33,887 bases of DNA from an uncultured Shimia sp. (GTDB taxonomy: Bacteria; Pseudomonadota; Alphaproteobacteria; Rhodobacterales; Rhodobacteraceae). Below the pieces are notes generated by a model. That model saw only the letters and a list, made by a program, of their open reading frames with translations, had not been told where the DNA came from and made no database searches. A program made the position numbers and the translations under genes. Location: contig CALGEH010000233.1 of assembly GCA_937881735.1 (NCBI GenBank), positions 1 through 33,887 on the forward strand, given 5' to 3'. Positions 4,580 through 11,870 of this stretch are shown here, piece by piece. Each line of letters starts with the position of its first letter. Position 1 is the first letter of the stretch.

Positions 4580-4597
4580 TGGTGCAAGTTTTTGCCT
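4580..4597 (-). promoter_or_regulatory. Shared promoter motif, copy A (upstream of tmoX)
   Basis: Minus strand: AGGCAAAAACTTGCACCA. The same core occurs upstream of dmmD (9962-9981) and in the amt/mgsA divergent region (11818-11835, and a weaker form at 11757-11777). Copies A and B also share a TGCTGTTT block followed by TTTTGC a few bases downstream. It is probably a regulator binding site; which regulator is unknown. Confidence 0.5.
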
Positions 4598-4629
4598 AGA
4601 CGGATCGCGCGCGCCCAGTTTTCGGGCAA

Positions 4630-4660
4630 ATACCCCGCCATGGGTTTCACGGCGGGGTAT
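4630..4660 (-). terminator. Hairpin downstream of the truncated tmoX copy
   Basis: A perfect 10-base-pair stem, ATACCCCGCC (4630-4639) with GGCGGGGTAT (4651-4660), and an 11-base loop, starting about 14 bases after the stop of the tmoX remnant. The run of T after it on the minus strand is short (TTT), so it may act as a 3' stabiliser rather than a strong terminator. Its placement matches the hairpin after the intact tmoX. Confidence 0.55.
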
Positions 4661-4674
4661 CTTTGAATGCGCCT

Positions 4675-5121
4675 CTAGTTGACCCAGCCGGACCAAACGC
4701 TCTCATTGGCCGCCAGCCATTCTTCGGCGGCCTCTTGCGGCTCAAGTTCCTCGACATCCACCAGTCGGGCCATCTCGGCGATTTGTGCGTTGGTGAAGGA
4801 CACTTTGGTCAACACATCATAGGCCGCAGGCCATTTGTCCGGCATCCCGTCCCAAGCCGCTTTCTTCAGGTATCCATCCGCCGGGTTCCCGCAATCGTAA
4901 AGCGCGTCGGGGTTGGGCCCCACGGACGGATCCGTGTCGCACCCCGGAACCGCCTCGGGGAAGGCCACGAACTCTCCCGGCCAGACAGCTTCGGCAAAGT
5001 TGGGCGTCCAGTTGAACAAGACGATGGGCCGTTTCGTGGCTTCCGCCGCGCCAATCTCGGCCCACAGGGCAGCCGCCGAGCCTGCGTTGATCACAGTGAA
5101 GTCCATATCCAAGGCCGCCAC
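4675..5121 (-). pseudogene. Truncated second tmoX copy (C-terminal half only)
   Basis: The 148 residues from the GTG at 5121 align without gaps to about residues 166-313 of the neighbouring TmoX, at about 80 percent identity by eye, ending in the same WVN. The signal peptide and N-terminal half are missing. Upstream of the GTG the similarity stops within a few codons, and the frame meets a stop around 5149-5151. With no export signal and no N-terminal lobe it cannot be a normal binding protein, so I call it a remnant of an old tandem duplication or of a partial replacement. The retained reading frame over 148 codons leaves open that a shortened product is still made. The relative breakpoint lies at about 5121-5130. 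Confidence 0.75.
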
Positions 5122-5216
5122 CGCGAGACGTTTCGAAGCAAAGTTTCCCTAGTGTAAACAAATCTATCAACGGCGTGTGCTATGTCACTAAAAACCAAGC
5201 GGTCGTGCAAAAGAGT

Positions 5217-5231
5217 TTTACTCTGAGTAAA
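5217..5231. promoter_or_regulatory. Perfect palindrome upstream of the XRE-cupin gene
   Basis: TTTACTC-T-GAGTAAA is a perfect 7-1-7 dyad about 100 bases before the regulator start. A related half-site, GTGTAAACA, lies near 5152-5160. XRE-cupin regulators usually bind short palindromes at their own promoters, so autoregulation is the simplest reading, but this is inferred. Confidence 0.5.
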
Positions 5232-5333
5232 CATACGTGCATTATCAGGACACTATGAACGACACGCGGCCCGCGTTTGCCCTTGCGCTTTCCTGTTCAG
5301 CCCGTGCCTTTCGATCCCAACAAAGCAAACGGT

Positions 5334-9961: not shown

Positions 9962-9981
9962 TGGTGCAACTTTTTTTCACT
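9962..9981 (-). promoter_or_regulatory. Shared promoter motif, copy B (upstream of dmmD)
   Basis: Minus strand: AGTGAAAAAAAGTTGCACCA, followed by a TATTCTTGCTGTTTGGTTT block. Copy A at tmoX shows GCACCA, a short spacer, TGCTGTTT and TTTTGC in the same order. The site lies about 75 bases before the dmmD start. Similarity over about 40 bases between two promoters with no coding homology points to a shared regulator. Confidence 0.5.
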
Positions 9982-9998
9982 GGTAGTCAATATGCCTG

Positions 9999-10030
9999 AA
10001 AAATGGAAAGGGCCGCGCAATGGCGGCCCT
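9999..10030 (-). terminator. Intrinsic terminator of the amt operon
   Basis: Minus strand: AGGGCCGC pairs with GCGGCCCT (10023-10030 with 10009-10016, 6-base loop), followed by TTCCATTTTT. It lies 20 bases after the stop of the 58-residue ORF and ends the amt transcript before dmmD. Confidence 0.8.
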
Positions 10031-10050
10031 CCCTTCACATCATGTGGCAC

Positions 10051-10227
10051 TTATTTAGTGTAGCGCGCTGTCTTCTTAGTTTCGGACGCTTGGCCATAAA
10101 CCAGAACGCCGACACAGATGATTGCTGCAATCGCGGTGCAGATCCCCGGCAGGGCAGAGCCCCAGCCAACGAACATAGCCCCATCGACGACGGCCCAATC
10201 TGCGGTTTCATATGGAAAACCAAACAT
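10051..10227 (-). CDS. 58-residue single-span membrane protein downstream of amt
   Basis: The ORF starts MFGFPYETADWAVVDGAMF and ends KKTARYTK. It has an acidic N-terminal part, one hydrophobic segment at about residues 26-45 (LPGICTAIAAIICVGVLVYG) and a basic tail. A strong ribosome binding site, AAGGAGAG, lies just before the ATG at 10227. The gene starts 21 bases after the amt stop and is followed by a terminator, so it is co-transcribed with amt. I do not recognise the family. A small accessory protein of the channel is an inference from position only; no glnK gene is present beside this amt. Confidence 0.7.
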   Translation of the reverse strand: MFGFPYETADWAVVDGAMFVGWGSALPGICTAIAAIICVGVLVYGQASETKKTARYTK

Positions 10228-10248
10228 AAGTCTCTCCTTGTCCTTGGG

Positions 10249-11646
10249 TTATTCGCCGGGCGCGAGGTTTACACCGGGGGCGGGAATGCCCTCGGGATAG
10301 CCATGCGTCGGCACTTTGACTTCATCCATACCGGCAATCTCGGCACCCTCGGGGATACGGAGCATGCCCAGCATCTTGAGGACAAGCGAGACCACGTAGC
10401 CTGGCACGAAGCCCAGAAGGAAGAAGACCACAGCCCCAACGATCTGGCCCATAAGGCTGATCGTCGGCGCCCCTTCGCCCTGAAGCGATGGATAGCCGGA
10501 AGCGAACACACCCAGCAAGATCACGCCGTAAAGGCCGATCGTGCCGTGCACGGTCACCGCCCCCACCGCATCGTCGATGCCGCGGTTTTCGAGGAAGTTC
10601 GCACAAGGCTTGAGGATGATCCCCGCCGAGAAGGCAATGACAAACGCCATGGCCGGATAATAGATATCCATGCCCGACGCGACCGAGATGATCCCCGCCA
10701 GAGCGCCCGACATCATCCAGAACGGATCACGTGTAAGAACCCAAGAACCGATGATCCCGCCCGAAATCCCCATGAGGATGTTGAACGACAGCGCCGACAG
10801 CGTGATGGGTGTGCCATAGATCGTGGACGGCTTGTCCGCGAACCAAGACCAAGCCTCGCCCGGCACGATCACACAAGCCATGAGGAAGCCCCAGAAGCCG
10901 ACGATGATCAGCATCAGGCCCACAACCGTCATGGGCATGTTGTGCCCGGCGATGTGGTTGGCTGTGCCATCGGCGTTGAACTTGCCGATACGCGGGCCGA
11001 GGTTGATCAACACACCCAGCGCGAAGAACCCGGCAACTGCGTGGACAAGTCCCGCCGCACCAAAGTCATGCACGCCCCACTGCGTGACGAGCCAGCCATC
11101 CGCATGCCAGCCCCATGCAGCCGCCACGACCCAGGCGAACGAGCCCAGGACGACCGCAAGGATGACAAAACCAACTGTCTGGATACGCTCGATAACCGCG
11201 CCCGACATGATCGAGGCCGTTGTCGCAGCAAAGAGGGCAAACGCGCCAAAGAAGACGCCCGATGCCTGATCGGCAATGTTCGGCCCCATATACTGCGCGC
11301 TCTCGCCCCAGCCCCATGCGATGGCATTGGCGTATTCGATGCCCGAAATACCCGCAGGACCCGGTGCGCCCGGAAGACCCGTGGGGAAGCCCCAATAGAC
11401 CCACCAGCCAAAGAAATAGAAGGTCGGGATCATGAACGCGAAAGCGAGGATGTTTTTCACACCCGAACTCAGCACGTTCTTGAGACGCGATGCCCCCATC
11501 TCGTAAGCCAGAAAGCCCGCGTGGATGATGATCATCAGCGGGATTGTCAGATAATAAAATGTCTCGGCAAACGTCGTGTTCGTCGTTGCCGCCGACGATT
11601 GAAGTGCGGCGACCTGCGCCGCCAGTTCGGCAATTTGTTCTTCCAC
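10249..11646 (-). CDS. amt: Ammonium/methylammonium channel (Amt family)
   Basis: A 465-residue Amt/Mep/Rh-type inner-membrane channel with about 11 hydrophobic segments. The conserved pore histidines are present: H202 in GLVHAVAG, after D194, and H367 in VTVHGTIGLYG. Before the first span (FYYLTIPLMIIIHAGFLAYE) lies an unusual N-terminus, EEQIAELAAQVAALQ, that could form a short coiled coil; many Amt proteins instead start with a signal-like segment. It is divergent from mgsA and so tied to methylamine use. It may import ammonium or methylamine, or recapture nitrogen that leaks out. No glnK is adjacent. Which substrate matters cannot be told from sequence. Confidence 0.88.
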   Translation of the reverse strand: MEEQIAELAAQVAALQSSAATTNTTFAETFYYLTIPLMIIIHAGFLAYEMGASRLKNVLSSGVKNILAFAFMIPTFYFFGWWVYWGFPTGLPGAPGPAGISGIEYANAIAWGWGESAQYMGPNIADQASGVFFGAFALFAATTASIMSGAVIERIQTVGFVILAVVLGSFAWVVAAAWGWHADGWLVTQWGVHDFGAAGLVHAVAGFFALGVLINLGPRIGKFNADGTANHIAGHNMPMTVVGLMLIIVGFWGFLMACVIVPGEAWSWFADKPSTIYGTPITLSALSFNILMGISGGIIGSWVLTRDPFWMMSGALAGIISVASGMDIYYPAMAFVIAFSAGIILKPCANFLENRGIDDAVGAVTVHGTIGLYGVILLGVFASGYPSLQGEGAPTISLMGQIVGAVVFFLLGFVPGYVVSLVLKMLGMLRIPEGAEIAGMDEVKVPTHGYPEGIPAPGVNLAPGE

Positions 11647-11870
11647 AGTGAAACCCCTGTTCTCGTAGTAATCTTTTATTTTCTACATCGACACGCGTCC
11701 CCCGAAATCCCTCGGGCGCGCGCGTGAATGTTAACAAAGCACGTGATCCACCATTCTGCCAGAGTTTTTTTGCCTGAGGGGAAATATATTTCACCACTAG
11801 TTGAGCGACCCCAGCTTTGGTGCTAGTTTTTGATTCGAGAGTTTTCAAAACATGAAGGAAGGCACGCGCT
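11647..11870. promoter_or_regulatory. Divergent promoter region amt / mgsA
   Basis: 224 bases between divergent starts with AT-rich patches (aaatatatttc near 11781). It holds motif copy C at 11818-11835 (minus strand AATCAAAAACTAGCACCA) and a weaker copy D at 11757-11777 (minus strand TCAGGCAAAAAAACTCTGGC). mgsA has a good ribosome binding site, AAGGAAGG, before its ATG. I found no canonical sigma54 -24/-12 pair (TGGCAC-N5-TTGC), which an NtrC-controlled amt would often have. Confidence 0.55.

Follow-up and report, generated by a model that had tools for sequence, protein, structure and literature searches.

The window analysed here is a stretch of 33,887 nucleotides from an uncultured Shimia sp. 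(contig C233 of a source assembly of 2.47 Mb in 277 contigs, 93% complete), and it carries tmoXWV, a gene for an XRE-cupin regulator (xre), dmmDABC, amt, mgsABC-gmaS, tmoR, tmm, tdm, folD and fhs, together with a formate dehydrogenase operon (fdh) predicted from domain matches. Comparison of its promoter regions with those of relatives points to a palindrome, usually TTTCCT-N3-AGGAAA, which is the predicted operator of a regulon, stands in front of methylamine genes and is co-inherited with the XRE-cupin gene. We consider it likely that this operator is read by the XRE-cupin protein itself, which is 220 amino acids long and encoded at positions 5334-5996 of the forward strand. The initial annotation of the window had described another motif, an A-run with GCACCA, in three copies upstream of tmoX, dmmD and the amt/mgsA region; as judged from the sequences compared, this three-copy motif is mostly a coincidence with a real regulon operator beneath it.

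The operator was obtained de novo by expectation maximisation, allowing zero or one occurrence per sequence and up to 40 random-substring starts, on 222 upstream regions (80 of dmmD, 69 of mgsA and 73 of xre) from which the window was excluded. The loci of the relatives were the best 80 of 222, picked by similarity to the window's DmmD. The resulting motif, TTTCCT-NNN-AGGAAAAATTTTTTC, had an occupancy of 0.95, and the four best starts ended within 0.3 log units of each other. It consists of a 15-bp palindrome, TTTCC-N5-GGAAA, followed by a third half-site that reads TTTC or TGCAC. Symmetry was not forced on the model, and columns 1-15 nevertheless mirror each other with correlations of 1.0, 1.0, 0.85, 0.93, 1.0, 0.98 and 0.65, while AGGAAA makes a second pairing with the TTTC behind it (0.97, 0.69, 1.0 and 0.99), and both pairings together indicate three half-sites that form two overlapping dyads. 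The third half-site at dmmD is often TGCAC, which is the GCACCA of the three-copy motif. The NtrC consensus is an inverted TGCACN...NGTGCA, and the likeness of the dmmD GCACCA to half of it had led to the suggestion of a nitrogen-control site. This reading is very improbable, as no inverted TGCACN-N4-6-NGTGCA is present in the window (the forward strand was scanned, the pattern being its own reverse complement), and mgsA has TTTC where the GCAC half would stand, the rest of its site being the TTTCC-N5-GGAAA dyad.

Within the window 11 scored positions, counting both strands and all registers, exceeded 9 bits; in 40 Markov resamplings there were 0.9 on average, and the best site had a mean of 9.8 and a maximum of 15.3 bits. 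The best predicted operator (TTGCCT-GAG-GGGAAA-TATATTTCA, 11770-11793, forward strand, 21.5 bits) lies in the gap between amt and mgsA, upstream of the mgsA -35 element, and is kept in G278, our comparison genome from the same genus. The second (TTGACT-GGT-AGGAAA, 31875-31898, reverse strand, 19.6 bits) precedes the predicted NAD-linked fdh operon, the first gene of which is situated at 30146-31846 on the reverse strand and which was recognised by domain matches across the operon; this site could be compared in two genomes only, and their fdh upstream regions are alike throughout. At xre the putative operator TTTACT-CTG-AGTAAA (5217-5240, forward strand, 16.7 bits, kept in G278) covers the core promoter read by eye (TTTACT 5217-5222, CATTAT 5240-5245), and TTTACTATCAGGAAAA-like dyads are found at xre in many relatives. 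The candidate tmoX operator, TTTCCC-CTC-TGGAAT (4520-4543, forward strand, 14.5 bits; 15.0 bits in G278, where it is kept), overlaps the -10 element GATAAT read by eye at 4538-4543 of the reverse strand. Two further operator-like dyads were scored, one of 14.4 bits between xre and a remnant of a second tmoX (5135-5158, reverse strand), partly kept in G278, and one of 13.5 bits at tdm (23534-23557, forward strand; 14.0 bits in G278), 40-63 bp upstream of the likely tdm start at 23494. The predicted operator at dmmD, TTGACT-ACC-AGTGAA-AAAAAGTTGCACCA (9962-9990, reverse strand, scored over 9967-9990), reached 9.5 bits, about as much as the best chance site, and therefore cannot stand on its score in the window alone; it is carried by its counterpart in G278 and by the dmmD promoters of relatives.

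Two of these places hold features of their own. The tmoX remnant, at 4675-5121 of the reverse strand, corresponds to the C-terminal part only of a second TmoX-like binding protein (residues 164-312, 80% identical), and it looks truncated because G278 has a full-length copy at C1:1099225-1100148. The start of the tdm open reading frame (ORF; 21125-23539, reverse strand) is probably set too early, an in-frame ATG at 23494 following a ribosome-binding-like GGAAGGA, as read by eye.

The scan of G278 covered 2,650,347 of its 3,050,628 bases (87%), and its top three sites were those at mgsA/amt (24.8 bits), fdh (19.4 bits) and dmmD (18.3 bits). Six of the nine sites above 14 bits fell in the methylamine cluster, which makes up 1.3% of the sequence, the other three of these six being at xre, tmoX and tdm. 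When the columns of the matrix were permuted 60 times, the cluster received none of the best nine sites in 52 cases and one in 8. The remaining three G278 sites lie at 959151, 625981 and 1910315, the first and the last of them inside ORFs. The site at C1:625981 (15.3 bits) stands between divergent ORFs outside the cluster and is a possible further target. A degenerate form of the site, composed with the window sites already known, matched the window's own genome five times, always inside the window, and a reversed control matched it 2 times; the mgsA site accounts for two of the five matches, in different registers, and the fdh, xre and dmmD sites for one each, those at tmoX and tdm being unmatched. 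Upstream regions of relatives exceeded the 95% shuffle limit in 11 of 12 cases for tmoX and 14 of 21 for tmm, compared with one of 11 for tmoR, which served as a control.

The protein that probably reads this operator has both expected domains according to Pfam, HTH_3 (41.7 bits, cut-off 23) and Cupin_2 (46.3 bits, cut-off 27.2). Its orthologue shares the locus with dmmD in 74 of the 80 loci and was found in all 51 genomes of the dmmD set, that is the window's own genome, G278 and the 49 genomes behind the dmmD loci. The sites at 5217-5240 and 5135-5158 lie upstream of the regulator's own gene, an arrangement that is weaker in relatives. The predicted recognition stretch, S-x-G-M-L-S-K-I-E-N-G-x-T-S-P-S-L, hardly varies across 104 orthologues, six of them less than 60% identical, while the helix-turn-helix as a whole is no better conserved than the cupin domain (0.77 vs 0.78). 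The candidate site is itself a dyad, and that the XRE-cupin protein would bind it is deduced from their co-occurrence. In a family-wide set of 295 genomes, XRE (E<=1e-70) and mgsA were both present in 80, XRE alone in 5, mgsA alone in 14 and neither in 196 (phi 0.85). Adding six divergent XREs changed these numbers to 86, 5, 8 and 196, respectively, and their phi of 0.90 is favoured by the fact that such divergent copies were sought only in genomes with mgsA.

The AraC/GlxA-type regulator that was named the master regulator of this pathway in Ruegeria pomeroyi in 2026, TmaR (PMC13390433), has to be weighed as the reader of the site. Its DNA-binding domain binds Ptmm, Ptdm, Pdmm, PgmaS-mgs, Pmgd and PtmaR in R. 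pomeroyi, and TmaR activates most of the genes there, among them tdm, dmm, gmaS and mgd (PMC13390433); motif-like dyads, seen by eye, are also present in the gap between xre and tmaR in many genomes. The XRE-cupin gene of R. pomeroyi is situated between dmmC and tmaR. We searched for TmaR with a query from L057 (Ruegeria pomeroyi SZCCDBG043), taken as TmaR by its place beside dmm and XRE and by its domains. The window's own genome has no TmaR orthologue (best match 30% identical; 33% in G278), which sets back TmaR as the reader of the operator in this genus. At E<=1e-90 TmaR is present in 33 of the 51 genomes of the dmmD set and missing from 18, this genus included. At E<=1e-60 it was found in 46 of the 295 family genomes, where it was together with mgsA in 35, alone in 11, absent beside mgsA in 59 and absent together with it in 190 (phi 0.41). 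A matrix trained on TmaR-carrying loci only (31 of the 80 loci, whose genomes lack a TmaR assignment, were excluded) finds the site in loci without TmaR at dmmD (15 of 16) and mgsA (12 of 14), and training on TmaR-less loci alone recovers the same motif. The TmaR-trained matrix placed five of its ten best G278 sites in the cluster; a matrix of the 15 dyad columns alone was less specific, with two of ten. AraC proteins usually bind asymmetric sites, and the site described here is a symmetric palindrome. For these reasons TmaR is an unlikely reader of the operator.

The dependence of the site on the XRE-cupin gene was examined further in mgsA upstream regions from 40 TmaR-less genomes, 14 of them without XRE at E<=1e-70 and 26 with it. 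In six of the 14 initially XRE-negative genomes an XRE of 50-56% identity was then recognised directly upstream of mgsA, and the site is present in every one of them (18.3-26.3 bits). For the remaining eight no relative exceeded 41% identity, and their mgsA scores range from -5.5 to 2.3 bits except in one, G172. Of the 26 genomes with XRE, 25 score at least 9.4 bits at mgsA, including G141, which was counted as having the site on account of 22.1 bits found 94 bases upstream of the true mgsA start. With a limit of 9 bits, which was set after the scores were known, the mgsA site is thus present in 31 of 32 XRE-positive and one of eight XRE-less genomes (Fisher p = 3e-6, kinship ignored). These 32 were sampled from the 51 TmaR-less genomes with XRE and mgsA, and six of them (G235, G201, G239, G071, G134 and G018) were picked for having xre beside mgsA, a choice that also enters the count of 30 of 40 stretches with XRE within 2.5 kb upstream of mgsA.

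The position of the site relative to the promoters differs between two groups of genes. In the 77 of 80 dmmD promoters that have a site of at least 12 bits, a conserved TTGaTT-17-CTgAAT follows 33 bp after the start of the motif, and by this spacing the dmmD core promoter of the window is predicted at 9928-9956 of the reverse strand (TTGCTG 9951-9956, 17 bp, CTCAAT 9928-9933). At mgsA the motif starts 31 bp before TTGaG, with TAGCcT 17 bp past the -35 element (68 of 69 promoters, same limit), and alignment with these 68 promoters predicts the mgsA core promoter of the window at 11801-11829 of the forward strand (TTGAGC 11801-11806, 17 bp, TAGTTT 11824-11829, with a TG extension). Assuming a transcription start about 7 bp past the -10 element, the centre of the first dyad lies at about -61 in both. 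The window sites of xre, tmoX and tdm are placed on the core promoter read by eye or just past it, and that of fdh on the predicted -35 element. An A-run at a fixed distance before the -35 of mgsA and dmmD could also suggest that the conserved stretch is only a core promoter, an A-tract UP element with a -35, and no operator at all. This is quite improbable, as in the window the same palindrome is found over or past the core promoters read by eye at xre, tmoX and tdm, is symmetric, and is missing at mgsA in seven of the eight XRE-less genomes. Inspection by eye also led us to discard a sigma-54 promoter (GG-N10-GC).

A mechanism that fits this layout would be that one dimer of the XRE-cupin protein binds the palindrome, the middle half-site being available to a second dimer as well. 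Where the site is situated on the core promoter, as at xre, tmoX, tdm and fdh, polymerase would be blocked until the cupin domain is occupied by a late metabolite of the pathway, plausibly gamma-glutamylmethylamide or N-methylglutamate, and the candidate protein is probably a repressor of these four units. The sites of mgsA and dmmD adjoin the -35 element on its upstream side, a position which fits activation, and here the same protein would perhaps act as an activator; alternatively, there may be interplay with an activator such as TmaR where this is present. Both of these proposals are the least certain part of the mechanism. A wider and tentative view, which we regard as possible though less likely than not, would make the XRE-cupin protein, in place of TmaR, the core regulator of the N-methylglutamate pathway in Rhodobacterales and the one with the wider distribution. 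It would act in both directions through one palindrome, repressing xre, tmoX, tdm and fdh and activating mgsA and dmmD from about -61/-51; TmaR would have been added in some lineages, and formate oxidation would be tied to the use of methylamines.

Several observations weigh against the XRE-cupin protein as the reader of the operator, or against the reach of its regulon. The training loci were chosen through similarity to the window's DmmD, and the genomes are not phylogenetically independent. Only 45 of the 73 xre promoters of relatives reach 12 bits, and these 45 share no core promoter at a constant distance; as there is no conserved downstream column, the xre promoter was read in the window only. 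The TmaR-trained matrix passed at xre in six of 15 TmaR-less loci. In relatives only two of 20 tdm upstream regions exceed the 95% shuffle limit, so tdm is unsupported as a general target. G011 has XRE and yet scores 4.0 bits at mgsA, G224, also with XRE, has 11.3 bits there, no better than its own shuffles (11.5), and the XRE-less G172 has 13.0 bits, with ten shuffles reaching 13.4. L068, a gammaproteobacterial metagenome-assembled genome, lacks an operator at dmmD although it carries dmm, mgs and an XRE-cupin of 71% identity. The seven XRE-cupins of P. aeruginosa with known regulons are all inhibitors, which leaves the upstream position at mgsA and dmmD unexplained. Finally, the TmaR DNA-binding domain binds the dmm and gmaS-mgs promoters of R. 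pomeroyi (PMC13390433), hence a part of the site could be TmaR's in that species.

The relation of the three-copy motif to this operator can now be described. The three strings are present as written at 4580-4597, 9962-9981 and 11818-11835, yet relatives separate them and do not support them as copies of one element. A pattern spanning all three, with up to 3 mismatches, has 3 matches in the window where 1.44 are expected, and as 19 of 100 shuffles gave at least 3, the set is not above chance by count. A looser form had 16 matches in the window's own genome, of which the 3 exact ones all fell in the window, and a reversed control had 12; after these tests in the window and in the genome the pattern was rejected as a set. 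Conservation upstream of orthologues was found for the dmmD copy alone: it overlaps the de novo operator and is kept in G278. The tmoX copy (4580-4597, reverse strand) scores at most -1.5 bits in its surroundings, its string is not kept in G278, and it is unsupported as a site and possibly a relic; about 50 bp closer to tmoX, GATAATAATATTCCAGAGGGGAAACAA differs by one base in G278. The string at 11818-11835, with -10.3 bits at best, falls in the alignment on the conserved extended -10 of mgsA, TGCTAGCcT; it is kept in G278 as a part of the mgsA promoter, and the predicted core promoter covers most of it. A "weaker form" proposed at 11757-11777 does contain the left arm (TTGCCT) of the mgsA operator, and the second block described at dmmD, TGCTGTTT, is its -35 region (TTGATTTT or TTGCTTTT in relatives). 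What stands of the initial annotation is thus the idea of a methylated-amine regulon operator, perhaps of the XRE-cupin protein, while the sequence and most of the positions have to be replaced.

The other regulator that had been suggested, the GntR-type TmoR, is encoded inside the cluster (16371-17126). It is very unlikely to own the present operator, since without tmoR the transcripts of tdm and its downstream genes were comparable to wild type (PMC13390433) and the tmm promoters of several relatives have, besides the present motif, another dyad of the TTTGGTCC...GGACCAAA type. Dyads of that type, seen by eye, are found at 18490-18570 of the window and in the tmm promoters of L010, L011, L013, L015, L024, L043, L045, L046, L047, L077 and L080; at tmm they are a candidate operator of TmoR (GntR-FCD). 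By eye, dmmD promoters of Leisingera (e.g. L010 and L011) carry them together with the present operator. Between tmoR and tmm an ORF of 322 residues (17210-18178, forward strand) has no Pfam or NCBIfam match, and 32-39% identical matches to it occur near tmoR in 11 of the 80 loci.

Methylated amines make an important contribution to the dissolved organic nitrogen of the sea. Of the 86 family genomes in which mgsA and the XRE-cupin occur together, 51 lack TmaR at E<=1e-60. With an operator defined and a candidate reader present in nearly all such genomes, the regulation of the pathway becomes testable across the group; the operator also predicts the fdh operon and amt as further targets and could serve as a regulon marker for metagenomes. 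XRE, GlxA and FadR genes were reported to co-occur repeatedly with methylamine genes, with no function given in the account of PMC7574528. The main text of PMC13390433 makes no mention of a motif, palindrome, consensus, footprint or operator, nor of XRE or cupin. Our literature search, which included parts of PMC12565409 and PMC5520151, found no published motif or study of this XRE gene, and the neighboring XRE-cupin regulator is apparently unstudied.

In comparison with known systems, E. coli PuuR is the XRE-cupin of the gamma-glutamylputrescine pathway, and PauR governs polyamine use. PuuR (NF007408) is the best NCBIfam match of the window protein, with 46.1 bits against a cut-off of 211, a score so far below the cut-off that the protein is not PuuR; both nevertheless adjoin a pathway with a gamma-glutamyl-amine synthetase. 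The TmaR regulon of R. pomeroyi includes the same tmm, tdm, dmm and gmaS-mgs promoters (PMC13390433), but TmaR is of the AraC type and was not found in two genomes of this genus. P. aeruginosa has eight XRE-cupins, seven with determined regulons, all of them inhibitors that bind beside their own genes, and palindromic motifs were reported for PsdR, PauR and ErfA, PauR having 29 target genes (PMC7901475). The candidate described here differs from them in its half-site sequence, in the third half-site, in the methylamine pathway and in the position upstream of the -35 element at its two main promoters. It resembles PsdR, PauR and ErfA in the combination of a helix-turn-helix with a cupin domain, in the palindromic form of its candidate site and in predicted targets by its own gene, and the proposed TTTCC-N5-GGAAA has the same 5-5-5 geometry as the PsdR site TTAAG-N5-CTTAA (PMC10965056).

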